From NCBI GenBank assembly GCA_001599295.1, contig BCGN01000004.1:1116346-1180345 (forward strand): a DNA stretch of 64,000 nt, read 5' to 3'. A program made the translations under genes and the position numbers. Of the stretch, positions 2,959 through 27,186 are shown piece by piece. Positions within the stretch are counted from its first letter, which is position 1; every line of letters starts with the position of its first letter. The stretch is from Sporopachydermia quercuum. Its lineage: Eukaryota > Ascomycota > Sporopachydermiomycetes > Sporopachydermiales > Sporopachydermiaceae. The notes under the pieces were generated by a model that worked only from the letters and a program-made list of their open reading frames with translations, made no database searches and was not told the origin of the DNA.

Positions 2959-4569
2959 TTAATGCAAAACCCATTTCATAATCCTTAATACCAAAAATAG
3001 AACAACTACAGAAATAAGAGCTAAGAATATGATGCCATTCCTCTTAGCATCTTTTTCTATGGATATGATCTTCCTCCGTTCTTGTTCTATGATCATTTCT
3101 TGGATTGTAGCCAACCGTTTCTTGTAATCATCCAATTGACCTGCGGCAGCATTCATACGACGTTCAAGTTCTTCAAGTTCTTTCAAATTCTCAGTTGCTT
3201 TCTGCAGTTTCTTTAGTTTTGCTTCAGATTTGGATTCAGTGAAACTAAGCTCAGTAGTCAAAGCTTTAACCATATTATCAGCCGTTCGACGTAAATATGA
3301 AATGTCATCAATTGCTTGTTTAAAAGTTGTCATATAAGCATTGTATCTTAATTCTGATTCGTTGATCTCCATTTTCACCTGGTTTTCAGCAAATGAAGAT
3401 GAGTTTTCAATTTCTTGATCAACTGATTCGATGTTGTTTTTTGATAATGTATAAAGAAACCCAAAAAGTCCTTCAGGCTGAGGACTGCTGAATGATTCAA
3501 ACCATTTTTTGCCGTCATCAAAATGCATGCTATCCTTTTCTAATAAAGTACGATTGATATTAGCTAAATTATAGTTCAGTACGTCTTCTTTGTTATTATT
3601 TGATTGAAAGCTCTTCTGAGTGCGTGCTTTATGCATGGATGGTCTTCTTTGAATTGGCTTTGTACGAGTATATGTAGGAGCAACAACTGAACTAGATATT
3701 GAATTGTTATCGTCTAAAAAAACACTGTTTCGGCGACTTGAAGCACTGTTTTGATAGAACTGTTTCACCAAAGGTGCTACCGTTTCATTCCCTTCGCTTT
3801 TTCTTAAGTTTTGACTTCTTGAACGAAATCGTTCGATTGAGTCACCATCAAAGGGTGTCAAACTATTGCGGGATAATGTTTGTTTTCCACTAACATCATC
3901 ATAAAGGGGAATCACTGCTATACTATCAGTATCAAAAAATACCCCTTTGGAGCTTTTCCGGCTGCTATTATTGCTACTGTTATTTCCGATATTGCTTACA
4001 TTCGTATTACTGAAATTGTCAATGGTATTTCCGCCAAAATGACCTTCAACTGTTGTTGGCGATATGGATCTCATTGAATGCTCACTTATTCTGTCATTCT
4101 CTGAGAAAGATTGCTTCCGTGATTTGTTTGAATAGCTGTCTTTAGCAATTGATGTCGGTTTTGATGTATAACTATCCCTTCTACCACTGGATTCTCTTCC
4201 TTTCTCTTTGTTGAGTTTTGCAGCCGTTTTCTGTAGCGAGTCCTGATTTGAGATTGACTTTGGAGAATTTTTCAAACTATTCAACCCAAAACTGCGTATT
4301 GCATTTGAGTTGCTCCTTAAATCCGGTGTTGGTAAGCTTGCGACTTTTTGGAGACCATTAGCTTCATTCCGAAAAAAACCTTCAGGTAGCTTTGATAGTT
4401 CCTTTGTTTTTTCTTTTAATTCCGCTAAAGATGCATTATACTCTTTTGGATTCTCGTCGGACCGTAATATCGTGGTTTTTGGTTTTCCTGAATCAGTAGG
4501 TGATGGTGGTGATATCACAACCTCTGGTTGAGGTACATGATGTTCCGGACCTTTGTTATTGAAGCTCAT
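2959..4569 (-). CDS. Tail-anchored coiled-coil protein, possibly Frt1/Frt2-like
   Basis: A 536-residue protein. Residues 1-370 are low-complexity, rich in Ser and Asn. A coiled coil spans about 430-505 (KLKKLQKATENLKELEELER and onward). A single hydrophobic segment ends the protein (about 511-530, IIFLALISVVVLFLVLRIMK), followed by only a few residues, so the protein is predicted to be tail-anchored in the ER or outer mitochondrial membrane. This layout resembles the yeast ER proteins Frt1/Hph1 and Frt2/Hph2, which are calcineurin substrates. PEVVIS near residue 16 vaguely resembles a PxIxIT docking motif. Similarity is architectural only, so no symbol is given. It is divergent from BOL3. Confidence 0.7.
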   Translation of the reverse strand: MSFNNKGPEHHVPQPEVVISPPSPTDSGKPKTTILRSDENPKEYNASLAELKEKTKELSKLPEGFFRNEANGLQKVASLPTPDLRSNSNAIRSFGLNSLKNSPKSISNQDSLQKTAAKLNKEKGRESSGRRDSYTSKPTSIAKDSYSNKSRKQSFSENDRISEHSMRSISPTTVEGHFGGNTIDNFSNTNVSNIGNNSSNNSSRKSSKGVFFDTDSIAVIPLYDDVSGKQTLSRNSLTPFDGDSIERFRSRSQNLRKSEGNETVAPLVKQFYQNSASSRRNSVFLDDNNSISSSVVAPTYTRTKPIQRRPSMHKARTQKSFQSNNNKEDVLNYNLANINRTLLEKDSMHFDDGKKWFESFSSPQPEGLFGFLYTLSKNNIESVDQEIENSSSFAENQVKMEINESELRYNAYMTTFKQAIDDISYLRRTADNMVKALTTELSFTESKSEAKLKKLQKATENLKELEELERRMNAAAGQLDDYKKRLATIQEMIIEQERRKIISIEKDAKRNGIIFLALISVVVLFLVLRIMKWVLH

Positions 4570-5310: not shown

Positions 5311-5751
5311 ATGATGATGCGAATTACTAGTATGCAAACGAGCAGAAGCTTGCTACGGCAAGTGCCTAGAAGAATGCTGAGTTATGGCTCAATGCGAACT
5401 TTTAATCAAAACAGGCTGAAAGACGGACACCATGTAAATCTGACATCAAGCAGTATGTTACTAAATAGGTTGGGAGTACGAATGTATTCTGAATCAGCTG
5501 AAAATGCAGAAGCCTCCGGTATGGATAGTTATGAACAGCATATCTATGATATTTTACAAAAAGAGTTGGAACCTAAAGTTCTTGATGTACGGGATGTATC
5601 TGGCGGTTGTGGATCTATGTTCGCCATCACAGTATTCTCAGAAAAGTTCAAAGGAAAACCTATGGTGAAACAACATCGATTAGTGAACGAAATTTTAGCT
5701 GATGAGATTGCGAAATGGCATGGNCTCCAACTTCGAACTAAGGCTGTTTAA
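5311..5751 (+). CDS. BOL3: Mitochondrial BolA-like iron-sulfur assembly protein
   Basis: A 146-residue protein whose last 75 residues form a BolA domain: YEQHIYDILQKELEP, then VRDVSGGCGSMFAITVFSEKFKG, then the helix KQHRLVNEILADEIAKWH. The C-terminus (LQLRTKAV) matches the ending of yeast Bol3 (Aim1, YAL046C). The N-terminal 65 residues are rich in Arg and Ser with almost no acidic residues, as expected for a mitochondrial presequence. Bol3 acts with Nfu1 in late transfer of 4Fe-4S clusters to mitochondrial enzymes. Several ATGs cluster at the start (MMMRITSM), so the exact initiator is uncertain. The single N falls in GGN, which is glycine whatever the base. The gene starts a block syntenic with SPC72 and GEM1. 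Confidence 0.9.
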   Translation: MMMRITSMQTSRSLLRQVPRRMLSYGSMRTFNQNRLKDGHHVNLTSSSMLLNRLGVRMYSESAENAEASGMDSYEQHIYDILQKELEPKVLDVRDVSGGCGSMFAITVFSEKFKGKPMVKQHRLVNEILADEIAKWHXLQLRTKAV

Positions 5752-5999
5752 ATCTAGGATTATATTAATGGGATGATAATTGTATATATTACCGAATCTA
5801 ATGATAATACACAGAACTTTGTAAATAAGTTATTGTCATGAGTAGAACTCTCAGAAATCAATAGGTATCAATAAATGGATGTCATTGTACAACAATTATT
5901 AAATGAAAGTCCTAAAGCTTACGTAGGACGAATAAGCCTTATAAACTTTTATCCATTGTGTGTACGTAGTTATTTATGAAAGGATTGAATTAGCGTAAT

Positions 6000-8177
6000 T
6001 CACTCTACCACTTCCTCAGTTTCCTCTAAAACTATCTCCTTGATTTCTTCAATCACCATAGAGTTTTCGTCAGCAATTTCGGTAGGATCATATTCCTTAA
6101 GACCAAGAGCGGCAATCTGGCTCCTAACGGATTCTCTCCATGAGTTCCATTCAGACAACAATCTCTTTCGTAAAAGAATGATTTCTCTGGAGGCCGAATT
6201 GGCTTCCATAAGATCTTCTTCTTCGAATTTTCTGCTGTAATTTCTCAACTTCTTCGCGACTTCCTTCTTGTCTCCTTCTGTCAAAACGGAAGGAGGTCTT
6301 GGTCTCCATTGAAGAGCTTTGAACTTTTCAATCAATTCTTCGGAAACAATGTCTCCCTTGAGATCAAAGATCTTGTATCCATTTTCAATATTATGTCTCC
6401 AAGATGATGACCAAGTAGACAAATATCTTCCAGAAGGATCCCATGCAATGTCTGTTAGTCCATAAGCTTCGATGTTATGAATTAACTTAACGGAAGCGGC
6501 AACATCCTTTTCGGAGCTGTCTTTCTTCTCACTTGGAGTACCTTCGAAATCAAAGTCATAGAATTCAAGCTCACAACCACCAGAAGAACCCAAAGCACCA
6601 ACAACCAAAAATCGGCCTTTAGGAGACCAAACCAAAATATTAGAATGCTTCTCGGGAATGGTCTTGAAAGCCTTCCAACCATTCAATCCAGCAACAGTTT
6701 GTTGCTTGCTGGCTTTAGATATCTCGGGAGCATAGAAAGTAACAGTGTTTCTAATGGAAGCAGGGTTAACACCAGGTTGAACAACATCACTTCTAGAAAT
6801 AGTAGCAAATCTGTCACCATTGGTTTCCCAAGCAAATGAGCTTACTGTATCTTTTGTCTCTATAACTTCTAAAGGAATATCTTTTTCGTCGATTCTGAGT
6901 AATTCTAAATTCGTGTAAGTAGATTTCTTGGACTTTGTGTATCTAACAACCTTAACACACAAATATTTAGCAGCAGATTGCCAGAATATCTTACAATCTT
7001 GCACGTTGAATAGATTAACGGATCTAATGACTTTCTTAGAAGGAACTTCGAGAACACACATTCTAGCGGTTTGATTAGGTGTTTCAGGAGTCCAATAACA
7101 TAAAAGATGAGAATCAGGATCCTTGGAACCCTTCAAATGAACAGGTGCAGGTGCCCATTCAAATTCAATAATATCATCAATCTTGATAGACTTCTTATCA
7201 ACCAAAGACATAGTAGCAGATTCATAAATGGATAGTTGACCAGGTGTAATTCTAGCAAAGTATTTGTCATCGTGAGACCATTTGAATGGAGGCCAGGTCA
7301 GTTTTCTTTCTTTGATGCTGCTTGGAGGGATAGAGAATGATCTCAATTTTTCACCAGATCGAATATCAAAGATAATCAAATTCTTGCCCTCATCGGCCTC
7401 AGTGAAAGGAGGTTGATTCTGTAAAGGAGTAGGCGAGAAAGTAACAACATAGTTTTCCTTTGGTGAAAAGGCAAATCTTTTTACATCTGGATGGAAAAAT
7501 CTTTGTCTGACATCAAAATCTTGACCAGCCCAGCTTTGAATACCTTGCGGATGAATAGTAAAGAGATAAGTTCCCAATGGTGACCATTCACTGAATAATG
7601 TAGTCCAATGATCCTTCTTGATAACTTCTTGAGGGCCAGTAGTCTTATTGTTGTAGTAAACACCCAATTCTTCACCTTTGTATAAATAAAATTGATCTCT
7701 TCCATTATAATCGGCCAACCAACTTCTCAAATTACCCTTCTCAATATATGGTTCAATCTTGGGTTCTACGAATTCTTCGGTCAAGTGTTCATTCAAAACA
7801 TACTTTTCAATATCTGATAACTTGTTAACCGAAAGCCTATGTTTGACATCTAACTTCTTATGGTTCAGTTGTCTAACTGCTTGGATTGCACTTTCAGGTT
7901 CTTCATAATCAATGAAAACAAAACCTCTTGTTTTTCCATTCTCAACGGGAATGTAGAAACCATCTTCCTTGATTTTTCCTACTGAAGAAAATAGCTTCTT
8001 TAAAACTTTTGATAAAACTTCAACCTTTGATTCAGGGGCAACTGGGGCTCCATCAACAACAATGGCAGTTTCCAATCCTTCATCTAGTGTAACAGCATAC
8101 TTCTCTTCTAGATCACTGAAATCTAGCCCACTGACGTCGATTTCAACTTCGTCAATGTTAACTTCATCGGCAGTCAT
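6000..8177 (-). CDS. PRT1: Translation initiation factor eIF3 subunit b
   Basis: A 725-residue protein when started at the ATG at 8177 (MTADEVNIDEVEIDVSG), which aligns with the MTAE start region of yeast Prt1. The frame extends 10 codons further to 8207, but that extension (MFQVYQKFIE) looks like leader sequence. The N-terminal RRM lies at about 45-130 (GFVFIDYEEPESAIQAVRQL). A WD40-type beta-propeller fills the middle (YLFTIHPQGIQSWAGQDFDV, WSPKGRFLVVGALGSSGGCE, WDPSGRYLSTWSSSWRHNIE). The C-terminal helix (ALQWRPRPPS onward to an acidic tail) binds other eIF3 subunits. Prt1 scaffolds eIF3 on the 40S subunit. In S. cerevisiae PRT1 (YOR361C) is next to PRE10 (YOR362C). Here the same two minus-strand genes are separated by the SPC72-like gene. 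Confidence 0.97.
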   Translation of the reverse strand: MTADEVNIDEVEIDVSGLDFSDLEEKYAVTLDEGLETAIVVDGAPVAPESKVEVLSKVLKKLFSSVGKIKEDGFYIPVENGKTRGFVFIDYEEPESAIQAVRQLNHKKLDVKHRLSVNKLSDIEKYVLNEHLTEEFVEPKIEPYIEKGNLRSWLADYNGRDQFYLYKGEELGVYYNNKTTGPQEVIKKDHWTTLFSEWSPLGTYLFTIHPQGIQSWAGQDFDVRQRFFHPDVKRFAFSPKENYVVTFSPTPLQNQPPFTEADEGKNLIIFDIRSGEKLRSFSIPPSSIKERKLTWPPFKWSHDDKYFARITPGQLSIYESATMSLVDKKSIKIDDIIEFEWAPAPVHLKGSKDPDSHLLCYWTPETPNQTARMCVLEVPSKKVIRSVNLFNVQDCKIFWQSAAKYLCVKVVRYTKSKKSTYTNLELLRIDEKDIPLEVIETKDTVSSFAWETNGDRFATISRSDVVQPGVNPASIRNTVTFYAPEISKASKQQTVAGLNGWKAFKTIPEKHSNILVWSPKGRFLVVGALGSSGGCELEFYDFDFEGTPSEKKDSSEKDVAASVKLIHNIEAYGLTDIAWDPSGRYLSTWSSSWRHNIENGYKIFDLKGDIVSEELIEKFKALQWRPRPPSVLTEGDKKEVAKKLRNYSRKFEEEDLMEANSASREIILLRKRLLSEWNSWRESVRSQIAALGLKEYDPTEIADENSMVIEEIKEIVLEETEEVVE

Positions 8178-8649
8178 TTCAATAAATTTCTGATAAACCT
8201 GAAACAAAAACCAACAAATAGATACTTGTCTTCAATTCACCATATACTTGGAATCTACTGAAACTGTATGAGATATCAACTATCACGATATACTTTCTTT
8301 GAATCAGTAGTTCTTACTGTATTACTTTTAATGCTGACATGATCGACCTGAAAATTTTCCATTCTCAAAACAAATGTAAGTGCTGTAGTTTACCTCACGT
8401 CCTGCGTAATACTAAGCATGAGCTCCTTATTAGATCTTCACATCATAGTAATTACTGACCCTGGATTTGGGACGAATGTTATCTAGAATAATATTTGATG
8501 AAACTCATAAATCTTGCCTTATCTGAATATATAATCATTTATTATCATATAACAAATCAACTTTCATGAGCCCAGATGAAAAAGACTTAATTATGAATGC
8601 TATTTAATTGAATAGAAAAAGATAAAACAGAAAACTCTTTCACTGTTTT

Positions 8650-8655
8650 ACGCGT
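8650..8655. promoter_or_regulatory. MluI cell-cycle box (MCB), distal, upstream of SPC72
   Basis: ACGCGT, about 250 bp before the ATG at 8903. In budding yeasts this is the core site of the MBF (Mbp1-Swi6) factor that drives G1/S genes. A second copy lies 88 bp closer. Function is inferred. Confidence 0.5.
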
Positions 8656-8742
8656 TTTATGAATGTTTTGATGTTTTAAAGAATCATAGCTGGTTATTGG
8701 CGGTTTAAAGAGTGCAGAAAAGGTGTTTTGACACTGTACTTC

Positions 8743-8748
8743 ACGCGT
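8743..8748. promoter_or_regulatory. MluI cell-cycle box (MCB), proximal, upstream of SPC72
   Basis: ACGCGT in the context TCACGCGTTA, about 155 bp before the ATG at 8903. Paired with the distal copy it makes G1/S transcription of the coiled-coil gene plausible. Confidence 0.55.
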
Positions 8749-8902
8749 TACTCTTTTGTTCAATATTCATAATAACAAACAACCTGTTTTCTATTGGTAG
8801 CTTCTTGAGTATGGTTGAGTCAATTGACAAATTGGAGAACAAATGAAAACTGATGGATGGAATAGGAAGAAGTTATAGTTAATATTTCATGGTCTTTAAA
8901 GG

Positions 8903-11900
8903 ATGGCAGAACAACCACAATCATTAGGAGAAGCAATGTCTATACTGAAAGCCGCAGACTCACCAGATCGAGATCCGGAATCATCAAGTAGTGGAGTATC
9001 CGAAGCTGAAAATACTTTTTTCTCGGACGCTGCAATAGAAACTTCACCGGTGAGACCAAACATCAAGACTAATGTATCTTCTACTGATATTTTCAATATG
9101 TCATTTCCCATGTTAGGTTTGTTGGAATCAGGTGAACCACCTTTGATATCAACCCCAACTCCTGCTCGAACTTATTCGATGGCTGGTAAAAGCATCGAAT
9201 TAAGAAAACCTGTGAATATTGCCATATCAAGCTTTGAGCAGAACTCTTCCTTTAGTAGTTTACTGAAAATTTCACCAACAGAAGATACTCGAGACAATGG
9301 AAGCTTGGTAGTGGTGGGTGAAGATTTAGATGCTGATGCTGATGTTGAACCTCTCTCTGAAGTTGAAGGGGAACAAGCTACTGAAGGCAAATCCGATAAG
9401 AAAACTAATTATGATTATAAAAATAATGGAAGTCAATTATTTAAGGGAGAAAGTGGAGATGAAGTTGGTAGTATTGCTGATGTTGAAAGCTTTGGCACCG
9501 AAGCAAAAATTGATAATCACTCTGAATACGAAGATAAACAAGTTGAATCAAATAATTCATCGGAAAGTAAAGTGGAAAATGAAAGCGAACCTGAAACTGA
9601 CGATTTAATAGCAATAAATAGCACGTCTCTCGAAGATATAAACGCCAGTGCAAGATCTATACAAGCAATCCAATCTGATAGTGAAGTAGTTCAGCTAGAA
9701 TCATATGTCGAATCATCACCAGAGCCATCAATATCTGATGTCACAGGACATTCTGAAGCAGACTCATCTTTACAAGGATTAGATTCCGTAACTAATCCTC
9801 TAGGAGATGAGGTAGACGAGAATGAGCTGCAAAGACAACAATCAAATGAGATTAATATTGACACAGTGGAGAAACCAGTATTGCCAATTCCTGAGCAAAC
9901 ACCGATGAAATGGAGACAACAAGCTCAACCTTCTACGGCAATTAGAAGATCTCTGCGTAAATCATCTATTCAATCAAAGCTTAAAGGATTCAACAGTCAC
10001 TCAAAAGTCTCTTCTGTTTTCGATTCTTCAGAAATTAACCCTCAGAATGCAACTGGAAGTGTTACTGATTCCTATCAAATCAAAGAGCTACAAAAGAAAA
10101 TACATGGCTATCAAATACAGTATAAATTGATGGAAACTGTATTAAGAGATGCATTAGATGAAATTGGATTAAATGATTCCAACAGAAAAGAAGAGCTTGC
10201 TTTAAGAGTACCAATTGACAGCTCAGATTTGGCCTCACCAGATACTTCTAGAGTAGAATCACAAAGGATTCAAAAAGAAGTTGAGCTAGAACGGCAAAGA
10301 AGAAACATTATCACGTTAGAAACCATTATAGAGGAAATGAAAGTAAAACTTGCATACTTTCAGAAAGACATATCTACAAAAAATCAGAATATCATGCAAT
10401 TGGAGCTTTCTAATTTCAACCATAAGAAGATACAGGACATAATAATAACCGCATTGATTTCTGAAACTAAATCTGAGTGTGATATCGACCTATTTAATGA
10501 TGCGCAGACTAAAAGTTTCCTTTCTTTTTTTTTCTCAAGATGGAGTGAATTTTATACAATGTCCAAAAAGGTACAAGAATTAGAGGAGACACTGCTTAAA
10601 ACCCAGAATGATTCCAGGGATTTGATCTCATCACCCGGTGTTAAAGGAGTGTTTATATCTTTGAAAGAACATGACAAATTTAAGAATGCCCTTCATGAAC
10701 GTGATGTATTGCAAGAAGAACTTGAAGTTCAGACAATTAAAGTGGAACAACTAACAAACAAACTGAAAAGTTCTTCTGGCATTTCTTATGATGAATCTGA
10801 CGTTGATTTGGATGCTTTAGAAACGACACTAAGGAAAGAACTGGATTCTATAAAAGAAGGATTCCAACAAGAACTAAAGACAATGCAAGACGAAAACACT
10901 AAAGAAGTTAATGAATTAGTTGAAAGATTGAAAACTGAGTCAGAATTGAAAGTCCAGCATGAAATTGAAGTTTCAGCGTTACAGGAAAAATTCATTGAAC
11001 TTGAAAATCATGCTCTGGATAATGACCAGTTGTCTAAGAATGTTGATCAACTGCAGACTGAAATACAAGAATTAACAAAAGAACTCCAAGCTGCACAAAT
11101 GACTCAAGAGGAGACAGAAAGACAGAAATCAGAAATACAAAAGAACTACTTGCGTACTGTCAGAGAATTGGAAAGTCAGCACGAAGCACGAGTGGCTTTG
11201 GAAAACCAAATAAGTCTGATTTCTAAAGAGTTTAACAATTCTGTTAAACAGAAACAGGATGAAGCGAAGGAGGCAAAAAGTGGGTTCATTTCTGCAGTTG
11301 AAAAACAAAGAAGTCTTTTGGTAGAAAGAAATAAGCTGAAAGTTTTGTTAGACAAACGGGAGAAGGAAAAGAAATCTCTTGAGAGAAATTTAGAGATTTT
11401 AGCAGAGCAGTTAGCGAATCAGTCTAAGGATAATAAATTAAATGAAGAAGAACATGAGCAAGAGCANGAGGATCAAATTCTGTTATTAGAATCAAGAATC
11501 TTGACTTTTCAAAAAGGCCTCTGCAGTGTTTTCATTGAAATGCTTCAACAATTGAAAAATCATGCTGAGCCTATTGAATACAATAAAATCAAACAAAGAA
11601 TCAATGAACTGAATGGTCTACCTCCAATGAGCAGCGATACCTTGAAGTTAACGGATTCTGTCTCCAGTCGTTTAATTGAATTGATCAAAGCATTAGTTAA
11701 GCAAACAAATTCCTTGCAGAGACATAGTAATAGTACTGGGAAAGTTAGTGCTTCTATTGAATCTGATGCTGAGTCTGATGCTGAGTCTATCGTGAGCACT
11801 TCAAAAGAAATGAAACAAGAAACTTTGGCTCTTAGGCTTCAAGCTATGACAAAAAAATGGAAAAACGAAAGGGAAGCTAGAAAATCTGAAAACGAAAACT

Positions 11901-12013
11901 CAAAACTCAGACTCAAGGAATTAGAGGATGAAAATGATTCATTGAGATCAGCTTTAGATGAGCTGAAAACTAAACATGGTGTTTCCAACAAGATACTGAA
12001 TGAGTCTATGTAG
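8903..12013 (+). CDS. SPC72: Large coiled-coil spindle pole body protein, probable Spc72 (gamma-tubulin complex receptor)
   Basis: A 1,036-residue protein. Residues 1-340 are acidic, Ser-rich and disordered. A helical segment at about 391-421 (KELQKKIHGYQIQYKLMETV) loosely resembles a CM1 motif, the gamma-tubulin-complex-binding element. Long heptad-rich coiled coils run from about 450 to 860 and again at 965-1030. Sequence alone says only 'coiled-coil cytoskeletal protein'. The name rests on position: in S. cerevisiae AIM1/BOL3, SPC72 and GEM1 are consecutive and co-oriented (YAL046C, YAL047C, YAL048C), and this gene lies between BOL3 and GEM1 on the same strand. Spc72 recruits the gamma-tubulin complex to the outer plaque of the spindle pole body. 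This protein is longer than S. cerevisiae Spc72 (about 622 residues). Two MCB elements upstream suit cell-cycle expression. Another coiled-coil family remains possible. Confidence 0.7.
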   Translation: MAEQPQSLGEAMSILKAADSPDRDPESSSSGVSEAENTFFSDAAIETSPVRPNIKTNVSSTDIFNMSFPMLGLLESGEPPLISTPTPARTYSMAGKSIELRKPVNIAISSFEQNSSFSSLLKISPTEDTRDNGSLVVVGEDLDADADVEPLSEVEGEQATEGKSDKKTNYDYKNNGSQLFKGESGDEVGSIADVESFGTEAKIDNHSEYEDKQVESNNSSESKVENESEPETDDLIAINSTSLEDINASARSIQAIQSDSEVVQLESYVESSPEPSISDVTGHSEADSSLQGLDSVTNPLGDEVDENELQRQQSNEINIDTVEKPVLPIPEQTPMKWRQQAQPSTAIRRSLRKSSIQSKLKGFNSHSKVSSVFDSSEINPQNATGSVTDSYQIKELQKKIHGYQIQYKLMETVLRDALDEIGLNDSNRKEELALRVPIDSSDLASPDTSRVESQRIQKEVELERQRRNIITLETIIEEMKVKLAYFQKDISTKNQNIMQLELSNFNHKKIQDIIITALISETKSECDIDLFNDAQTKSFLSFFFSRWSEFYTMSKKVQELEETLLKTQNDSRDLISSPGVKGVFISLKEHDKFKNALHERDVLQEELEVQTIKVEQLTNKLKSSSGISYDESDVDLDALETTLRKELDSIKEGFQQELKTMQDENTKEVNELVERLKTESELKVQHEIEVSALQEKFIELENHALDNDQLSKNVDQLQTEIQELTKELQAAQMTQEETERQKSEIQKNYLRTVRELESQHEARVALENQISLISKEFNNSVKQKQDEAKEAKSGFISAVEKQRSLLVERNKLKVLLDKREKEKKSLERNLEILAEQLANQSKDNKLNEEEHEQEXEDQILLLESRILTFQKGLCSVFIEMLQQLKNHAEPIEYNKIKQRINELNGLPPMSSDTLKLTDSVSSRLIELIKALVKQTNSLQRHSNSTGKVSASIESDAESDAESIVSTSKEMKQETLALRLQAMTKKWKNEREARKSENENSKLRLKELEDENDSLRSALDELKTKHGVSNKILNESM

Positions 12014-12211
12014 TGTATATTAGGTGAGGTGGTGAAATCAGCTCCATATAATGCAATTTAATGAATATGTGGTAAACGAAGGAAGCAATTAACTTCTATG
12101 TAAGATGTAACTGAAGTAACGAATCTAGGCAGGCTCTTGGTGCAGAAAGTAATGTTTACATTGATTAAGGCTAACATGAATTAGAATAACTAACTATTTA
12201 GTCTAATTAAA

Positions 12212-13277
12212 TTAATCCTCCATTTCCTCATCTTCATCTTCCGAATCTTGTGCAAGTCTTATAGCTTCCAGTAATAAATCTTTAGGAACTTCTTGATGTT
12301 TACCATTTGTTTCGGAAACACTAACCCATGACATTTCTAATTCAAATTCTTTGTCCTTGTTGTCTTCATGAGCTAGATATATTATTCTTGCTGCTTCTTT
12401 AACCCCTTCTCTAACTGATATATTAGGTAAATCTAGTTTTTCTAATTCTGATTTGGCAGTTTGTCTACCTTTTCCAGTAGCAGCTCCCAAATAACCCCAG
12501 CAAACTCCGTTTGGTTCTACCATAAACAACTGAGGCCCATCTTCATCTACACCAGCAATAATACATGATACACCGTATGGTCTCAATGAACCGTGTAATG
12601 TGTGAAGTTGTACCATAGATGAAAGTTGATCGGCCAAGGAAGCAATGCCAATTGGCTCTTTGAATGTCGATCGGTAAGATTCTGCTGCTTCTCTTCCTGT
12701 ATTGACAAAATTCCTTCCATCAGGAAGAATACCAGAATATGTCTGAAATGTTAGAACACGATACCTAGCAACAACACTACTCCAAGAAGACACTCAATTG
12801 ATCAATTGATCCTCATTACAATACTTACAATGCCGGTATGTCTGTCAACAGTCTGAATACGCTTGTTACCGCCTGGACGAAGAAGTTTCGAAGTAATGAT
12901 TTTTTCCACCGCTAAAACAACACCATCTTTACATTTTATACCAACAGCTGTTCCTCCATTTTCAACTGCCTTTTGAGCGTATTCCACTTGGAATATCCGA
13001 CCATCTAGATAGAATCATGAATTAGTACCTCATCAGAACTACCAGGGCCAATCTTCACTTATCAAATATCAGATCACGATCGTTATAAAATAATGGAGTC
13101 ATNTAACTTACCAGGACTAAAGACACTGTTGGCTAAATCGTATCCTGTTCCAATAGATGTCTATTTATTGACATAGTTAGTAGCTCGTCACGGATACTTC
13201 AAGCAATTGTATGCTGCTAAGCTGTAATTAACTAGTCCAATCAAAAATTACTCCATGATTCAATCGATACTTACCAT
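12212..13277 (-). CDS. PRE10: Proteasome 20S subunit alpha-7, four exons
   Basis: Reconstructed exons are 13277-13275 (only the ATG), 13160-13112, 13004-12829 and 12742-12212, giving 252 residues in one frame. Introns are 114, 107 and 86 nt with GTAAGT-type donors; intron 1 has an exact TACTAAC at 13176-13182 on the minus strand. The joined protein begins [20 protein letters not shown], which is the alpha-subunit signature, and continues through [40 protein letters not shown] and an acidic tail (EDEDEEMED) typical of alpha-7. It forms part of the outer ring of the 20S core. The S. cerevisiae gene has no intron. It is convergent with SPC72 and divergent from GEM1. Confidence 0.95.
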
Positions 13278-13989
13278 TTTCAGTATCTATGTGTCTACTT
13301 TTCTCGTTGATAATTGGTTCCCAATTCACGTCCAATACACAATGTTTGATTCAATGATTTGTTGCAAGACACATACACAATCTTCAGTACAATACAATAC
13401 AATCAAATCCAATTCAATGCTAACAAAGACTGTTCTTCAAGCAAAATCTCAGTAATTTATCTGTATCTATCATATACTAAAGCCGTTTGCTGTACTACAA
13501 TAAGGGGTCAATTGATTGTGATCAGAGTTGTATTATTGTATTGGTGTGATGTTGTCAAACTGTCATCAAAATATAATAATGCCATTATATTATTTCAGAG
13601 TGTTTTGGCCACCGAAATAGAGGAGAAAAGTCAGAAATATAGAGTATGCACCTTCGTAAATTCTTACAGATGTCAACATGCACCTGCATGCTTTTGCATA
13701 TCATATGACTGTAATATTATTCTTTAATTCAACCTCTCGAGCCATTTGAGCCATCATTGTTAGCATGGGCTACCGCCAAGTGGCTTAACNGAATGGATCA
13801 ATTGATTGAAAGCGGACTATAGAACTAGTATCAGTGAGCTGATGATCGATTGATACAACCAGGTGAGCTTGTTACACTTTTTGTGATGATTTCCGTTTAT
13901 AGTTCAATTCATCATTACACGCAGTAGTCATTTGCATAGTGGGAAGCATATCANTATAGAGTAACCATAGATTGAGTGTTATTCTCGAA
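13278..13989. promoter_or_regulatory. Divergent promoter region PRE10/GEM1
   Basis: A 712 bp AT-rich spacer. Open frames here are short and unconserved. A near-match to the Rpn4 proteasome element is present but imperfect (see rejected items). Confidence 0.4.
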
Positions 13990-16343
13990 ATGTCAACAGA
14001 GTCGATCAGAATAGTAGTGTGTGGAGATGAAGGTAAGTTGATGTTTTGACAACGGGCTTTGGGCGTTTAGCCTGTCATTTGAGTTTTGAGTGTCCATTTA
14101 TGTAAATCAAAAAAAGCATTCTAACTAAGTATTACTTTAGGTGTGGGGAAATCAAGGTATGTTAGTGGATTAGCTCATCAGCAGTTGTTGCCTGAACTGC
14201 TATGAATTGGACCCATTGAATAAGATGTTATTTAAATTAATTGTCAGTGGCAGCTAACGAATCATTTTAGTCTTATAACATCGCTTGTAAAAGAGGCTTT
14301 CGTTCCTAATATCCAAAAAGTTTTACCCCCAATTACTATACCAAAAGACTATTCATCGCAGTTTGCACCTACCAACACTGTTCTAGTTGACACNTCATCT
14401 AGTCCACAAGATATATCAATTCTACAGAAAGAAATAAGGCAAGCGGATGTGATATGGCTTGTTTATTCGGATCAATACTCTTGCGAGAGAATATCTCTAT
14501 ATTGGATGGAAATGTTTAGATCCATGGGTGTCAATCTACCAGTTGTACTGTGTGCTAATAAATCTGATTTGATTCCGACCGAAGAAGGTAAGCGAGTTCT
14601 TTCCGATGAAATGATACCAATTTTGAAAGAATATAAGGAAATTGAATCTTGTATTAGAAGTTCGGCTAAAAACCACTATAACGTTAATGAAGCATTCTAT
14701 CTATGTCAAAGAGCAATTACACATCCAATTTCACCATTATTTGATTCAAAAGAAGGAAATCTCAAACCTTTAGCGGTTGCAGCTTTGAAAAGAATTTTTT
14801 CTCTGTGTGATAAAGATCAAGATGGGTTCCTTTCTGATTCAGAGTTAAGTGAACTGCAATCGAAATGCTTTAAGAAATCTTTAGAGAAAAATGAAATCAG
14901 TCACATAAAAAGNNCTATCAAGAAAGAGTTACAGCTTGATGATGAAACCATGGCAAAAGGTCTAAGTACTGAAGGGTTTATTTTGTTGAACAAACTATTT
15001 GCAGAAAAGGGAAGACATGAGACAACATGGGGTATCCTAAGAACGTTTCACTATACAGATTCTTTATCCTTGAACGATAAGTTCTTACATCCCAGATTTG
15101 ATGTACCTCCAAATGCCTCGGTAGAACTAAGTCCTGTGGGAAATAGATTTTTTGTAGATTTATTCTTGTTGTTTGACAAGGACAATGATGGTAGGCTCAA
15201 TGAAAATGAACTAGGAGCATTATTTCAACATACTCCAGGTATTCCTAAACTATGGAAAGACTCAGATTTCCCTAGAACTACTGTTAGCGATGAACAGGGC
15301 TATATTACACTACAAGGCTGGCTAGCTCAATGGAGTATGACAACTTTACTAGAATACAAAACAACATTGGCTTACTTAGCTTACTTGGGTTTTGAGTCTC
15401 AAGTTAAAGGAAAGACGACAACAGCAGCTTTGAAAGTTACGAAGCCATTGAGGAAAAAGCAAGTTGGAGGTAAAATATATAGAACGGATGTTTTGGATCG
15501 TACAGTCTTTAACTGTTTTGTCTTAGGTGCTAGTGGTAGCGGAAAGGTAAGCTTTAGATTTCTTGGTGTTTCGCTGATCTGATATGCTAATCTGATATAT
15601 GTACTCTTATGAATTTCATGAGAGTAATATTATTATTTATGGTAATACTAACAGAATTTCTAGTCGTTATTATTAGATTCATTCACTAATAGACCTTTAA
15701 CAGATTTGCATACACCTACGATCCATTCTAGAATGGTAGTAAATAGTGTTGAGATGCGAGAAGGTAAGCAGTGCTATATCATCGTATGTGAAGTGTTTGG
15801 ATGACTGTTACTTTGAAATTTAGTGTCCTTATTCATAATCTGAATACTAACTAATATATTTCATAGCTTGAAGAGTTAGGTGAACTAGAACCAGCGATTC
15901 TGGAGAATCCTCAACGGCTAGATGCATGCGACGTTTTATGCTATATATTTGATTCGTCAGACCCTGATTCATTTTCATATCTTGTTGAGTTGCGAGAAAA
16001 ATATCCCTACTTAGATCAGCTACCTTGTGTCTACGTTGCATCAAAAGCCGACTTAGATAGGCAACAACAACGTTCTGTTGTTCAACCTGATGTTTATACA
16101 AGACAACTGCATTTACAAGGACCATTACATGTCAGTGTGAAATGGGGATCCTCTTTAAATGAACTATTTGTTCAATTAGCTGAGGCAGCTCAGAGACCAA
16201 GAAGCTGTACTCCTGGTTTAGACGACCAACCCGAAAATCAAATTATGATACCGCCTATTTATATAGCAGGAGGAACAGCGGGACTCATAACATTGGTCAG
16301 TTTATGGATTTGGGGCAGCTCCAGAGCGCATTCATCTCGATAA
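13990..16343 (+). CDS. GEM1: Mitochondrial Rho GTPase (Miro), five exons
   Basis: Exons are 13990-14032, 14141-14156, 14271-15546, 15664-15783 and 15867-16343; joined they give 643 residues (yeast Gem1: 662). Introns are 108, 114, 117 and 83 nt; the last two have TACTAAC branch sites. The N-terminal GTPase P-loop is GDEGVGKSS at 12-20, with NKSD as a base-recognition motif. EF-hand loops are [12 protein letters not shown] (about 199-210) and [12 protein letters not shown] (about 322-333). The second GTPase P-loop is GASGSGK at 439-445, with ASKADLD. The C-terminal membrane anchor is at about 614-633 ([18 protein letters not shown]). Gem1 sits in the outer mitochondrial membrane and acts in mitochondrial morphology and ERMES contacts. 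Exon 2 is a 16-nt micro-exon. Confidence 0.95.
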
Positions 16344-16728: not shown

Positions 16729-17808
16729 TTATTCAGTCCTGCTGAAAAAACTTGAGAACTTCAAATACGATGTCGGACTGTCCCTTTCTGTCGATGGTGT
16801 GTTTGCTGTGGAAGTAGTAGGTGACTCGTTATCGGAAGAGTTTGAGGAATCGAATGACTTTATTTCCAATCCGATTGCTTGGGCCAATGTATCGGGAACA
16901 CAATGACCAAAAAAGATTCGTCCACTATTAGAATCAGTGGGAACAGATGTCTGAGGTTTTGAATTTGTCTTCATTCTCTTCCTTTCTCCATTATCATTGT
17001 CATCTATGGCGATTATACGCTGTGGTTTAGTTGCCGCTGCTATTATGTCTGTTGCTTTCTTTTGGATTTCTAATCTATAATTATTTTGAGTACTAGGTGC
17101 TTTAAGAAGTTTAGGCGGTAATTGAATGCTTGAGGGGCTATCTACCAGTTTATCTTGATTTATGGTTAAAAATGATACGATCGGTTTCATTTTGTCACGC
17201 CCATATTCTTTCGTTAGAGATAGTTGCACCACTTTCACTATTGATTTTAAACAAGTTTTGGTAACTCTACGTTTCCGTAATTCATTTGTAATTTTTGCTG
17301 ACAGTTCAAATAAGTCGTCCTGCTTCTTTAACGTTAATTTTCCCAAATATTCATTGATGAAAGATTCTGGAAATGCAACTCGTGCAATACGAGATATATA
17401 GAATAGATTTAGTAGTGGATACACATTGGACTTGTCGGATATACTTTGATCAACAAGATATTGCAGTATCTTCGTTATCAGTGATGTGATCTGAATTGTT
17501 GATTCACGTTTATTTGCACGTTTATTTGCACGTTTTCTGTATACTCTTCGCTTTCTCGTTTTTGTTTGAGTGGTTGTCTTACCGGCCTGCTTACCATCTC
17601 TATTATCCTTTATTGTTTCACTGCCTGTTGAAGCAGTGACACTGTCTGTATTCTTGGCTGTTGGGGTTCTTTTGCTTATATTTGATTTCCCATTTCTTTG
17701 TATATATTTAGATGAGAGTTTTACTGCAGGAGCACTGGGATGGATCTTGACCCGTCCTGAACCAACTGGTAACATTCGACTATTACTGTTATCAATAAGA
17801 GAGCTCAT
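16729..17808 (-). CDS. Uncharacterised basic protein
   Basis: A 359-residue uninterrupted frame that I do not recognise. The N-terminal third is basic and Ser/Thr-rich, with a cluster at about 85-101 (TRKRRVYRKRANKRANKRES) that would serve as a nuclear localisation signal. Residues about 104-240 look helical and folded (ITSLITKILQYLVDQSIS onward). The C-terminus is Ser/Thr-rich and acidic. Bases 17506-17529 hold two tandem copies of a 12-bp unit, encoding a KRAN duplication. The length, sensible composition and clean ATG support a real gene, probably nuclear. Its neighbours (GEM1 and RCE1) give no functional clue. Confidence 0.7.
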   Translation of the reverse strand: MSSLIDNSNSRMLPVGSGRVKIHPSAPAVKLSSKYIQRNGKSNISKRTPTAKNTDSVTASTGSETIKDNRDGKQAGKTTTQTKTRKRRVYRKRANKRANKRESTIQITSLITKILQYLVDQSISDKSNVYPLLNLFYISRIARVAFPESFINEYLGKLTLKKQDDLFELSAKITNELRKRRVTKTCLKSIVKVVQLSLTKEYGRDKMKPIVSFLTINQDKLVDSPSSIQLPPKLLKAPSTQNNYRLEIQKKATDIIAAATKPQRIIAIDDNDNGERKRMKTNSKPQTSVPTDSNSGRIFFGHCVPDTLAQAIGLEIKSFDSSNSSDNESPTTSTANTPSTERDSPTSYLKFSSFFSRTE

Positions 17809-21896: not shown

Positions 21897-23429
21897 ATGG
21901 AAATACCAGATCCTTCAGATTGGAAGGGAACAGCAGTACCAGGACTAGCGGAATTAGAGTCGTTATTATATTGCCATGTTTGCAAAGATTTTTTAAAAGC
22001 TCCAGTGATAACATCATGTAGTCATACCTTTTGTTCTCTATGTATTAGACGCCACCTCTCCACGGAGGCTATATGTCCAGTGTGTCGGGAACAACAATTG
22101 GAAGTTCAATTAAGAAAAAACACAGCAGTTGAGGATTTAGTAATCTGCTTTCAAAGAATACGGCNGGACTTATTGGCACTAGCTAAAGCTAAGGAAAACT
22201 GTCCTCAGAGCATTGATGACCATGAGAGTGATAGAGAGAAAGAAATTGATAATGACTATGAAAATGAAAATGGAAAGGTGCATGATGAAATAGAAGTCGA
22301 ATCTGATTCTTCTACAACTCACAAGGATATTTTATATGAAGTCAGATCTGCTGAGAAGAGAAAAGCCACAAGACAAGAGCGTCAGAAGCAGCCGCATGTG
22401 AATTGGGATAATTATGAAGATTCAACCGATAGTCTTGGAGAGAACAAAGACACTTCATTGATAATTTTATCAGACCAATCTGAATACGAAGATCCTGAAG
22501 ATAGTACATTCAACATAGATGAACATGAAAATAAGAAGCGGAAAGTAAAACAAATTAAGAATAGATCAGCTACTAAAACAAGTACATCATTTGCACCTTG
22601 TCCAATTTGTCATAAGATGTTCCCAATTAAAGATCTGGAAACCACCCATATTGACGAGTGTCTAAATAATTCTCAATTTTCCTCTGTCAATAATTCAACT
22701 AAATCTTCAAAACACTCAACTCAAGCTACATTATTACCTCAGAAACATCAAAAAGTGAAAACTAAACCAACTTATCGTTATGCACCTTCTAGTTCCTCTA
22801 CTACCAGTTCAACCACTATATCTAACGAACCAAAAAAGAAACTTTCCAAGATAAATTTTAATCTGCTGAAAGATTCCAAATTGAAAGACAAATTATCTCA
22901 ACTAGGACTACCGGTAAACGGGAATCGGACTTTACTTGAGAGAAGATATACTGAATGGTGTAGTTTATGGAATGCCAATTTAGATGCGAAAAATCCTCTT
23001 TCTGAGCGACAGTTGAAAAGAAACTTGAATGCTTGGGAGGACTCATTCAAGGCATCATTAGAAGGCTCCAAAGAAAAAAAAGATTTTGATGCAAAGGAAT
23101 GGGCTGAAAATTTCAATGGAGATTTCAAAGATTTGATAGAAAAAGCTCGGAAAGGGTTGCAACAAAATGGATCGGCCGAGGAAAATACTAGACCAAATGG
23201 TCGTAGCATTACCACAGATAGCTGTGTCAATGATGAGAATCAATCAGATAGCAATACCGTCACCAAAACAGATACGGGCTCCGTCGAATTAGGTCGTAAA
23301 TCAAATGCAAATCAAAATACTGACGATCAGAATACAAGTGACAATCAAAAAGTGATAGAGGATAAATCAACAAACATAGAGGAACTATTTCTACCGACAG
23401 AAATAATAAGTTCAAGTGAAGGTCCATAA
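21897..23429 (+). CDS. RAD18: E3 ubiquitin ligase Rad18 (PCNA ubiquitination)
   Basis: A 510-residue protein with the full Rad18 layout. The C3HC4 RING finger spans about 26-65 (CHVCKDFLKAPVITSCSHTF, then CSLCIRRH, CPVC). A UBZ4 zinc finger at about 239-260 has CPICHKMF and HIDEC. A SAP DNA-binding motif lies at about 326-360 (KDKLSQLGLPVNGNRTLLER). The helical region after it corresponds to the Rad6-binding segment. With Rad6 it monoubiquitinates PCNA at stalled forks and starts translesion synthesis. The C-terminal 110 residues are low-complexity. In S. cerevisiae RAD18 (YCR066W) is followed by SED4 and ATG15, as here by SEC12 and, one gene later, ATG15. Confidence 0.95.
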   Translation: MEIPDPSDWKGTAVPGLAELESLLYCHVCKDFLKAPVITSCSHTFCSLCIRRHLSTEAICPVCREQQLEVQLRKNTAVEDLVICFQRIRXDLLALAKAKENCPQSIDDHESDREKEIDNDYENENGKVHDEIEVESDSSTTHKDILYEVRSAEKRKATRQERQKQPHVNWDNYEDSTDSLGENKDTSLIILSDQSEYEDPEDSTFNIDEHENKKRKVKQIKNRSATKTSTSFAPCPICHKMFPIKDLETTHIDECLNNSQFSSVNNSTKSSKHSTQATLLPQKHQKVKTKPTYRYAPSSSSTTSSTTISNEPKKKLSKINFNLLKDSKLKDKLSQLGLPVNGNRTLLERRYTEWCSLWNANLDAKNPLSERQLKRNLNAWEDSFKASLEGSKEKKDFDAKEWAENFNGDFKDLIEKARKGLQQNGSAEENTRPNGRSITTDSCVNDENQSDSNTVTKTDTGSVELGRKSNANQNTDDQNTSDNQKVIEDKSTNIEELFLPTEIISSSEGP

Positions 23430-23570
23430 TTGAATGTTTAATTTGATAATTCATACTAGCATACTAACTTACATAATCATTTGCATTATAAGTAACATAA
23501 CATTAATTCAAATTCAGATATCTTCAAGAACTATTTACATTACTTCTTCGACAGAATCTCCGTCAGGATA

Positions 23571-25649
23571 TTATTGAGCATCTGGTGCTACTTCATCACC
23601 AATAAAATTTTCAATTGCATTAACTGCATCGACAATGTTCTTTGCTGCATCTACAATTTTTTCTTGTAACGGCGTTTCCTCNGATTGTTCAGCCTCAGAA
23701 TCAGCTTCAGGGACGGTCTCAGCATCAGCATCGGAATTAGCACCAGAATCAGTATCAGTTGTTTCTGGTTCCTTTTCAATACTGCTTTCTACTGTAGCTG
23801 TGTCATCAATAACAGTTTCTTCAGAAGCATCAATTTCTGAATCATCATTTACAAGAAAATCAGTTGAAGCTTGTTCCTGAGAATCAACAGATGTATCGGA
23901 TATCGTTTGAGTTTTGGTGACTGTTAATGTCAATGTTTCAGTTTCTTCCTCTTTTTTATCATTACCATCAACAGGCTCATCAACAGACTCCTCGACATTT
24001 TCAGCGTCTGCATTTTTGGAGGCAATGGTATATTCTTCGTCTTCTTTTTCATCCTGTTCTTTTTCTGCTTCTTTTCCCTCTTCTTCAGTTTCGTCGCTCC
24101 CCAAGATCAGTGTCTCTGTAGCTGTTTCATCCTCACTCTCTGTTTCCACAATCGACTCACTTGCCTCAGCCAGTTTCTTTGCTTCTTCCTTTAAAACTTC
24201 ATGCTCAATAACCTTTTCTGCTTCCATTTTATCAACAATAGACTCAGCAGCATACAATTTTTCATATATCTCTTCAAGAACAGATACATCTGTAGGTTCA
24301 ATCTGTATATGCAAATCACTCAGGACTTCCAACTCTTCTTGCTCAAGACCAGTTATAACTGGCTCTTCAACAGATGTCAAACTTGTTTTACCCAAAACNT
24401 TCAAATTCTTTGATTCAATGATTTCTATCAAATCATTGAGAAGCCTTTCTTTGGTAACCTTTTCAATGATGACTGCAAACAATACAATGAACAATACACT
24501 GAGAAGTGAATACACTAACGTGTCACGCGATTTATGAATGTCACCTGAAACAGGTAAACGGATCAGATTCAACGTATTGGCAGCAGAAGTAGATGCAAGT
24601 ATAGCGCCAGAAGGACTAAATGTTAATGAGGTGATGGCAAATGGATGGATATAATGGAAAATAGCTTCCTGTTTGAAAGTCGATGGATTGAGGAGTATAA
24701 TTGATATCGAAGATGTAGCAATTGCAATGAAATTAGGAGCGATGGATAAAGCCGTAACTCCTTTATCTTTCTTGGAGAAAACCCTTGTTCTAACAAACTT
24801 TTGACTTCTGATATCAACTTCGCCTAATGAAATTCCTCCTCCTGTACTATATGCAATAATGACTGAATTTTCGCCTTTAAACCTCATACGAGAAAACTTG
24901 CCCTTTGACCCCAATGTCTTTATTGATACTGAGGCTATTTGCTTCAATCGTTTTTCACTTTCAGTTAAATCATACACTTTCAGCTCAGTAGAGGTAAGAA
25001 CAGCCAGTTTTCCTTCCTGTGTTATATCTAAATCTGCAATAGAAGCATCCAATGTAAGATCAATGACAATTTCCTGGGGGGTATTAAAATTAAGGCAAAT
25101 TCTCAATTCTGCTTTATCGTCAGAAGAAGCAACTATCAAAGCACTTGCCACCGCAGGTTTCTCATCTCCTTGGTTATCAGATGAAAAATGTACCATTCTG
25201 ACAAATTTTTGATAAACAGAAGGGTCCTTTGACTTGAAAACCTGTAGAGATCCTATAGGTTTCAATTTGTAGTCATTACTATTCTTACCCTCACTTAAAC
25301 TATTGCTTCCCAGTTTCAGAATTCTCAAATGATCATTCTCACCTTTCTCAACCACAGCAGTATTTCGATTCACACCAGCAAGTAAGTTCTTACCAACCAG
25401 ATCAACATCCGCACTCATTACACAATCTTCATTTTCTTCAAACACATAATGTGACAAAACGCTAACTTTGGCATTTTGTTCTTCGTTGATACCAATGCTT
25501 GTGTCAATATCAAGAATCGTCACCTTATTCTTGACCCCATTTTTGCCTTCTCCACCACCACCAGCAACTAGTAGAACATTCTCCGAAAGAAACTGACTAC
25601 AGTATAGTGGATATTTCAAATCCGTGGTATTATCTGTTGATATCTTCAT
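23571..25649 (-). CDS. SEC12: Sec12-type Sar1 guanine-nucleotide exchange factor
   Basis: A 692-residue type II membrane protein. The cytosolic WD40 propeller spans about 1-370, including the potassium-binding-loop-like GGGGEGKNG near residue 31. A single transmembrane segment lies at about 378-396 (YSLLSVLFIVLFAVIIEKV). The roughly 295-residue lumenal tail is highly acidic (Glu/Asp/Ser/Thr), longer than in S. cerevisiae Sec12 (471 residues in total). It ends GDEVAPDAQ, without an HDEL-type signal. Sec12 activates Sar1 on the ER to start COPII coat assembly. This species has one gene here where S. cerevisiae has the SEC12/SED4 duplicate pair. The gene is divergent from the pyridoxal kinase, as SEC12 and BUD17 are in yeast. 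Confidence 0.92.
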   Translation of the reverse strand: MKISTDNTTDLKYPLYCSQFLSENVLLVAGGGGEGKNGVKNKVTILDIDTSIGINEEQNAKVSVLSHYVFEENEDCVMSADVDLVGKNLLAGVNRNTAVVEKGENDHLRILKLGSNSLSEGKNSNDYKLKPIGSLQVFKSKDPSVYQKFVRMVHFSSDNQGDEKPAVASALIVASSDDKAELRICLNFNTPQEIVIDLTLDASIADLDITQEGKLAVLTSTELKVYDLTESEKRLKQIASVSIKTLGSKGKFSRMRFKGENSVIIAYSTGGGISLGEVDIRSQKFVRTRVFSKKDKGVTALSIAPNFIAIATSSISIILLNPSTFKQEAIFHYIHPFAITSLTFSPSGAILASTSAANTLNLIRLPVSGDIHKSRDTLVYSLLSVLFIVLFAVIIEKVTKERLLNDLIEIIESKNLXVLGKTSLTSVEEPVITGLEQEELEVLSDLHIQIEPTDVSVLEEIYEKLYAAESIVDKMEAEKVIEHEVLKEEAKKLAEASESIVETESEDETATETLILGSDETEEEGKEAEKEQDEKEDEEYTIASKNADAENVEESVDEPVDGNDKKEEETETLTLTVTKTQTISDTSVDSQEQASTDFLVNDDSEIDASEETVIDDTATVESSIEKEPETTDTDSGANSDADAETVPEADSEAEQXEETPLQEKIVDAAKNIVDAVNAIENFIGDEVAPDAQ

Positions 25650-26313
25650 TATAACTATTGTGATATCGTTCCTAGTTCCCGTCTATGCAAACAAAGCCCT
25701 AGAAATCCTTAAATCTGTTTAAATGAATCAATCAGCCAGCCAATCAATCAATAACTCAATAATAAATTCCATTCAATGNACATGAATCAAACTCTGCAGA
25801 AATAAATCAATCAATTACCATACAAACTTGCTAATGTTAATTCCAATGNATTCATAGCCTTGTAATAGCTAATTATGGATGGTCTTAATCTAATCTCAAG
25901 CAGTACCCATCACCTTAATTGTGGAGATGGTGATGAAAAGAAAACCCGCATGACATGTAACCCCCCAAAAAAGAACCAGCTTTCAATTACAATGTATGGC
26001 CATAATGTAACTCGAAGCAGGGGTGTACAGGAGACGTTTGCGAAAGAAAAACCAAGGGTCATTCTAAAGATGATAANATCTCGAATACCCTTCATCTCTC
26101 ATTACGGCTGTAAGCTCAGATGAAAAGTTAGCGTTTATTGACTACCGAGAATATTGAAAAGGCTCCTCTTGCTTGTGCGTATGACGAGTAATCTGTAATA
26201 AATGATGGAAGGCAGTTATTAATGTGGAATGAGTTGATTGGAGCATGTACAGTACGATTTAGGAGCGTTTGAGCTTTTTGATTGGAGGAAAGAGATCGGA
26301 TTATACATAGGTA
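25650..26313. promoter_or_regulatory. Divergent promoter region SEC12/BUD17
   Basis: A 664 bp spacer. Runs of AATCAATCAAT-like repeats occur at about 25,725-25,815. Short frames here lack any similarity I recognise. Confidence 0.45.
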
Positions 26314-27186
26314 ATGACGAAAGATATACTGTGCATTCAGTCACATGTGTCACATGGATATGTTGGTAACAGAGCAGCTGCATTTCCTTTACAATATTTA
26401 GGATGGAATGTTGATGCGTTGAATACGGTACAGTTTTCAAATCATCCAGGCTACGGGAGATTTGGCGGATCAAGTTTTACTGGTGAAGAAATCGGGACTG
26501 TATATCAAGATGGATTGAAAAAAATTGGTCTGAAATTTGATGCTCTTATAACTGGTTATGTTAGAGACGAAGGAGGATTGAAAGCGATAGGAAAGATCGG
26601 TCGTGACTTACAAGAAGAAAAACAGGGCAAGCTTGTATGGTTATTAGATCCAGTTTTAGGCGATAATGGTAAACTATATGTACAGGAATCCATAATTCCT
26701 GTGTATAAAGAAATATTGAAGGCAGGTGGAGTATCAATAGTAACTCCTAATCAATTTGAAGCTCAAATACTTTCCGGCGTTGAGATTACTGATAGAGCAA
26801 GTTGCGAGAAAGCCATTTCGGTGCTACAGAATGAATTCAACATTCCAATTGTTGTCATCACATCGTGCGAGTGGGAAGGTAAACTGTATTGTCTAGCCAG
26901 CGATAGCAGAGTCAAAGGAAAAGTAATACACGACTTTGAAATAGAGAAATATCCCTGCGGCTTTGCTGGAAGTGGTGATCTGTTTGCTGCTCTTATTATT
27001 GACAAATTTTTCAAATATAATCAGTCCGATATTAAATCAACAATCGCCGACTGCTTGCAAATTATTGGTGAAGTATTGAAACTGTCGTATCAAAATCAGC
27101 TGGAACACAATAATAAACAAGGCATTGACTCAGTCTCTTATGTATATAAACTTTCTTTAATACAGTCAAAGCAATGGTTTGTATGA
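26314..27186 (+). CDS. BUD17: Pyridoxal kinase (Bud16/Bud17 family)
   Basis: A 290-residue ribokinase-fold enzyme. The N-terminus (ILCIQSHVSHGYVGNRAAAF, then ALNTVQFSNHPGY) is the pyridoxal kinase signature. DPVLGDNG at about 113-120 and GFAGSGDLFAAL at about 216-227 provide the ATP/Mg site and the catalytic Asp. It phosphorylates pyridoxal, pyridoxine or pyridoxamine at the 5' position. The symbol BUD17 is chosen over BUD16 because yeast BUD17 (YNR027W) is divergent from SEC12 (YNR026C), as here, and because the N-terminal motif reads ALNTVQFSNH. Confidence 0.9.
   Translation: MTKDILCIQSHVSHGYVGNRAAAFPLQYLGWNVDALNTVQFSNHPGYGRFGGSSFTGEEIGTVYQDGLKKIGLKFDALITGYVRDEGGLKAIGKIGRDLQEEKQGKLVWLLDPVLGDNGKLYVQESIIPVYKEILKAGGVSIVTPNQFEAQILSGVEITDRASCEKAISVLQNEFNIPIVVITSCEWEGKLYCLASDSRVKGKVIHDFEIEKYPCGFAGSGDLFAALIIDKFFKYNQSDIKSTIADCLQIIGEVLKLSYQNQLEHNNKQGIDSVSYVYKLSLIQSKQWFV

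Follow-up and report, generated by a model that had tools for sequence, protein, structure and literature searches.

Five genes lie side by side at positions 5311–16343 of the analysed window, a 64,000-nucleotide stretch of draft yeast sequence, in the order BOL3(+), PRT1(-), SPC72(+), PRE10(-), and GEM1(+). They were identified from open reading frames, Pfam families, and searches against solved structures (Table 1). An initial annotation had proposed these five names, positions, order, and strands, and all are borne out by the reading frames, the Pfam and structure matches, and the spliced models described below. Intergenic spacers in the block are 248, 725, 198, and 712 bases long, and neighboring pairs are convergent and divergent by turns. 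The window contains 52 N, eight of them in the block, and no N run exceeds 2 bases; given runs this short, the gene order of the block involves no scaffold join across a gap. The left neighbor (2959–4569) is coiled-coil-like and has a hydrophobic stretch at its C-terminal end; the right neighbor (16729–17808) is an unnamed 359-aa gene without a meaningful Pfam family.

Table 1. Genes of the two interleaved blocks in the window, with the evidence for each name.
Gene	Positions	Strand	Product	Evidence
BOL3 (AIM1) ortholog	5311-5751	+	146 aa	BolA Pfam, BolA-like structures; one N at 5724
PRT1 (eIF3b) ortholog	6000-8177	-	725 aa, without intron	Pfam, eIF3b chains
SPC72 ortholog (supported)	8903-12013	+	1036 aa; gamma-tubulin complex receptor, CM1-MASC class	Mto2_bdg PF12808; match to presumed S. 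cerevisiae Spc72
PRE10 (20S proteasome alpha-7) ortholog	12212-13277	-	4 exons, 252 aa	Proteasome Pfam; PRE10-named chains; spliced model
GEM1 (Miro GTPase) ortholog	13990-16343	+	5 exons, 643 aa	Pfam domains; structure match; spliced model
RAD18-like RING-SAP gene, first in second block	21897-23429	+		RING, SAP Pfam; name presumptive
SEC12/SED4 ortholog, second-block anchor	23571-25649	-		SEC12 structures 6x90, 4h5i, E 9e-29
Pyridoxal kinase, BUD16/BUD17 family (not separated)	26314-27186	+		Phos_pyr_kin Pfam; pyridoxal kinase structures, E 6.4e-45
ATG15-like lipase	27584-29554	+		Lipase_3 Pfam; name presumptive

The first gene of the block encodes a BolA domain (Pfam E 2.9e-14). Its best solved relatives are plant BolA2 (2mm9, 52.3 bits), BolA-like protein 3 (2ncl, 50.9 bits), and a RIKEN BolA-like protein (1v9j, 46.0 bits), compared with 27.7 bits for BolA-like protein 1 (5lci) and 26.8 bits for BolA-like protein 2 (5y4b). 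These scores lean toward BOL3 over another BolA, not decisively, and the assignment draws partly on the neighboring genes. The PRT1 product matches eIF3b chains with E-values down to 1.4e-208. By a count of printed identities, it is 40.9% identical to the 4uer chain, presumably from S. cerevisiae, and 47.2% identical to 4nox, presumably from Chaetomium. PRT1, the sole gene searched against plasmids, genome contigs, and viral contigs, had no match in them.

The coiled-coil gene had been named SPC72, and a profile comparison was the proposed check. The only Pfam family detected in the 1036-aa protein at E <= 0.1 is Mto2_bdg (PF12808), the Mto1/Spc72 C-terminal domain, at residues 978–1023 (E 8.6e-4). 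Its 20.0 bits fall just below the curated cut-off of 22.3. No solved-structure relative was found at E <= 0.1. Against a sequence taken as S. cerevisiae Spc72, blastp aligned 44 residues at 47.7% identity (E 5.4e-8) and gave a second, insignificant piece (E 0.28); full-length phmmer of the same pair was not significant. Aligned to the C-terminus of that sequence, the C-terminal region scores 108, whereas 2000 shuffles that preserve the heptads reach at most 77, and 25 other segments of the protein at most 55. A rival identity, Spc110/pericentrin, is disfavored: Mto2_bdg being the sole Pfam family at E <= 0.1, no C-terminal PACT domain was found.

The N-terminal CM1 motif is degenerate in Spc72, and Pfam Cnn_1N has no match in the 1036-aa protein at E <= 0.1; residues 387–415 align weakly with the presumed Spc72 sequence (score 40). 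The name SPC72 is therefore supported on its C-terminal side, through the Mto1/Spc72 domain and the 44-residue match, although CM1 was not found by Pfam; its support is one motif and gene position, not the whole protein. The length also differs from the 622 aa of S. cerevisiae Spc72. In its C-terminal MASC match, its being long, and its apparent coiled coil as judged by eye, the predicted protein resembles the Spc72/Mto1 CM1-MASC receptors as portrayed in PMC4034690 and PMC2989437, the former (Lin et al. 2014) placing Spc72 in the CM1-MASC class. Judging from the Pfam description and its position, PF12808 probably corresponds to the MASC region (compare Samejima et al.), so that the C-terminal MASC motif of these receptors appears here both as a sub-threshold PF12808 match and as the alignment scoring 108.

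PRE10 and GEM1 are each modelled with several introns. The PRE10 exons, on the minus strand, are 13277–13275, 13160–13112, 13004–12829, and 12742–12212, the first consisting of the ATG alone; those of GEM1, on the plus strand, are 13990–14032, 14141–14156, 14271–15546, 15664–15783, and 15867–16343, the second being only 16 bases long. Both spliced models are open from start to stop. PRE10 matches the Proteasome Pfam family (E 5.7e-33), and the best matches of its last exon are chains named PRE10 or alpha type-7 (E 4.7e-63). GEM1 contains the EF_assoc_1/2, EF-hand, and Ras families, and it matches the structure of Mitochondrial Rho GTPase 1 (9e2p, E 2.1e-80). Frameshifts or pseudogenes were considered for both genes and rejected: the breaks show donor, branch-point-like, and AG acceptor sites, and splicing at them yields full predicted proteins. 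Three introns in PRE10 and four in GEM1 are an unusual load among budding yeast genes.

Introns occur elsewhere in the window as well. TSR3 (38013–36893) has two modelled introns; three acceptors of the second preserve the frame, and the one chosen keeps a stretch taken to be conserved. The DNL4-like (32299–34714) and DID4-like (57600–58645) genes each consist of several frames and are probably intron-split. Neither the 11 copies of TACTAAC (6.7 expected) nor the 33 of GTATGT (28.1 expected) in the window is a signal by itself. The proteasome promoter element GGTGGCAAA has no exact copy in the window. There are 15 one-mismatch copies (9.3 expected); one of them, at 13605–13613, lies upstream of PRE10 and proves nothing.

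In S. cerevisiae, AIM1/BOL3, SPC72, and GEM1 are neighbors on one strand of chromosome I (YAL046C–YAL048C), and PRT1 and PRE10 are neighbors on one strand of chromosome XV (YOR361C–YOR362C). With these positions and strands, the genes of the two regions alternate along the block, and BOL3+ SPC72+ GEM1+ on the one side and PRT1- PRE10- on the other keep the order and strands of their tracks. If five genes are placed side by side with order and orientation random, 40 of the 3840 signed orders make both tracks collinear with the right strands, and 4 of the 3840 add alternation. The genes, their arrangement, and the intron models are read from the window, and the arrangement fits the two S. cerevisiae tracks as described. 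Perfect alternation had been put forward as the pattern expected after whole-genome duplication; this did not hold, since by simple arithmetic random loss from either copy yields alternation in only 2 of 32 retention patterns, making it an acceptable outcome and not a predicted one.

We take the chromosome I and XV regions to be duplicate blocks that share the OAF1/PIP2 pair: on chromosome I, OAF1 lies just past GEM1, and on chromosome XV, PIP2 lies just past PRE10. When OAF1 is aligned with PIP2, the tracks are oriented to each other as they are in the window. We also presume that the ancestral order in YGOB contains BOL3-PRT1-SPC72-PRE10-GEM1, and that PRT1, SPC72, PRE10, and GEM1 of Eremothecium gossypii are ADR399C–ADR402W, with ADR403C–ADR405C as the next numbers. 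In a table of PMC3737163, a single tandem cluster of Ashbya, ADR403C–ADR405C, has both OAF1 and PIP2 as its homologs in S. cerevisiae. No OAF1/PIP2-like gene adjoins GEM1 in the window, and both flanks differ from the S. cerevisiae neighbors on either track; the conserved stretch is therefore short. Term counts show no mention of SPC72, PRT1, or OAF1 in the body of Gordon et al. 2009 (PMC2675101), and passages of PMC5626484 and PMC3276169 contain nothing on the five-gene order.

A second interleaved block at 21897–29554 strengthens the reading of the five-gene order as older than the duplication. It merges what we take to be YCR066W-YCR067C-YCR068W with YNR026C-YNR027W, from chromosomes III and XIV, SED4 and SEC12 being presumably retained duplicates. 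The names of YCR067C (SED4) and YNR026C (SEC12) appear in PMC4824858. This block, the most telling of the further ones in the window, appears to follow the same logic as the five-gene block, with the addition of a retained duplicate pair as its anchor.

Across the whole window we listed 25 genes, 22 of which received provisional S. cerevisiae names, based in part on family membership. Counting as near pairs those genes within four places of each other in the window whose presumed S. cerevisiae numbers differ by 2 or less, there are 12, covering 17 of the 25 genes. This count is somewhat favored by the choice of BUD17 over BUD16, PEX30 over PEX31, and DID4 within its family, all named with the neighbors known. 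Random draws from the genome gave a mean of 0.044 near pairs and a maximum of 2, and shuffles of the same 22 genes a mean of 3.6 and a maximum of 11; none of the 20,000 trials of either kind reached 12. DNL4, TSR3, and SGT2 (presumably YOR005C–YOR007C) lie at 32299–43851, SGT2 being preceded by an inserted VPS9-ankyrin gene, and at 51474–55084 CWC24 and a PEX30-like gene are divergent neighbors, like YLR323C-YLR324W. The right end (55085–64000) holds DID4-, MET14-, and AUR1-like genes and gene-poor stretches. These three we take to be neighbors of CEN11; inverted repeats at 55–64 kb amount to six weak pairs, 70–77% complementary, with nothing centromere-like shown. A 401-aa gene at 30187–31392 has no meaningful Pfam family. 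Rfam gave no match in the window at gathering level, and a tRNA scan of the window with bacterial settings found no gene.

The reading of the order as ancient depends in part on where this yeast belongs. According to PMC10581693, U is strongly preferred at donor position +4 in Saccharomycetaceae and Saccharomycodaceae, whereas Phaffomycetaceae prefer A. Among the nine introns modelled in PRE10, GEM1, and TSR3, a small sample, position +4 is A in six and T in three. Together with the introns themselves and a PRT1 only 40.9% identical to the S. cerevisiae chain, this suggests a lineage outside Saccharomycetaceae and Saccharomycodaceae. Placement within Saccharomycetaceae, of the Lachancea or Kluyveromyces type, was considered and is unlikely for the same reasons.

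With the organisms of the chains as presumed, the S. cerevisiae chain is outscored by one that is not from a budding yeast in two of the three proteins compared: PRT1 (697.7 versus 578.5 bits) and, over different lengths, CWC24 (165.6 versus 149.3 bits). PRE10 shows the opposite, with 215.3 bits for the S. cerevisiae chain and 160.0 bits outside the budding yeasts. No chain among the MET14 structure matches was recognized as S. cerevisiae, and SEC12 was left out of the comparison, its structure matches being S. cerevisiae chains apart from a single weak match to a bacterial kinase. CTG makes up 99 of the 1126 leucine-type codons in 22 correctly framed gene stretches. In PRT1, the residue opposite CTG codon 104 is leucine in 4nox and phenylalanine in 4uer, and that opposite codon 293 is phenylalanine in 4nox and leucine in 4uer. 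Leucine is the natural reading of CTG, and CUG as serine or alanine was set aside.

From the intron signs and PRT1 identity, the block order would predate the duplication. BOL3-PRT1-SPC72-PRE10-GEM1 would have been present before the whole-genome duplication in the Saccharomyces ancestor, which would then have placed all five genes on both copies. The copy that is now chromosome I would have kept BOL3, SPC72, and GEM1, and the copy that is now chromosome XV PRT1 and PRE10. Because deletion leaves the survivors in place, each track would retain its order and strands, and the merged tracks would restore the order in the window, which the source yeast, lying outside the duplication, would simply have retained. 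Three points of this account are inference: the sister relation of the S. cerevisiae regions through duplication, the ancestral and not derived state of the order in the window, and the loss of alternate copies. We put the probability that the block retains an order predating the Saccharomyces duplication, with loss of alternate copies in S. cerevisiae, at roughly 0.88. The old interleaved order proposed by the initial annotation is the best explanation, helped by the second block and the signs of outside-family placement, although the step that makes the two regions sisters is a presumed one.

With that step presumed, the order might instead be ancestral while the S. cerevisiae genes were separated by ordinary rearrangements. 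Rearrangement would, however, have had to pick out every other gene while each group stayed whole, its order and orientation undisturbed, and the second block with its SEC12/SED4 pair (positions presumed) fits duplication directly; we consider this improbable. The block order could also have been assembled by later moves, at the price of coincidences. If the S. cerevisiae arrangement were the older one, PRT1 and PRE10 would have entered the BOL3-SPC72-GEM1 trio in the source lineage, and flanks unlike the S. cerevisiae neighbors on both sides do indicate rearrangement nearby. Such a history would nevertheless call for two insertions, both matching in order and strand two genes that neighbor each other elsewhere, and for a comparable coincidence at 21897–29554, which makes it more improbable still. 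An artefact of assembly is the natural suspicion for draft sequence with 52 N, but with eight N in the block, no run above 2 bases, and a collinear, strand-consistent interleaving that a random misjoin would not give, it is hardly credible.

Retention of an ancestral order by duplication and alternate loss elsewhere is a well-known phenomenon, and the interleaving of two regions belongs to the textbook case for the yeast duplication. The arrangement itself is real, and its interpretation is very probably right in the main point; the block adds a member to a known class, and its source yeast may be more distant than is usual for that class. Its possible novelty lies in interleaved order surviving in a distant lineage with introns. 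Every block of this type serves as an independent outgroup test of the pre-duplication genome as reconstructed. One retained outside the duplicated family indicates an order that predates the family, and conserved order can name fast-evolving genes, SPC72 among them, that are poorly identified by sequence alone.

Tentatively, at somewhat short of even odds, the source yeast would belong to an order far removed from the Saccharomyces group and would nevertheless have kept several pre-duplication stretches, 17 of the 25 listed genes falling into sets of S. cerevisiae neighbors (names and positions in part presumed). Portions of the ancestral order would then be traceable past the family, at a distance where synteny has been said nearly to vanish. 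Whether Dujon and Louis (PMC5499181) or Hession et al. 2025 (PMC12711049) provides the applicable account depends on the placement of this yeast.

The closest known parallel is the double conserved synteny described by Gordon, Byrne and Wolfe 2009 (PMC2675101), where the ancestor was reconstructed from 11 yeast species near S. cerevisiae. As there, two S. cerevisiae regions interleave, with order and orientation kept, along one region of unduplicated type; the window differs in looking like a more distant, intron-bearing lineage than those 11 species. Hession et al. report that two outgroup orders, Saccharomycodales and Phaffomycetales, share extensive synteny with the reconstructed ancestor around centromeres, which makes retention of an old order here plausible. 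The likeness is that outgroup orders keep local pre-duplication order; the difference is that those regions are centromeric, whereas the five-gene block has no known centromere tie.
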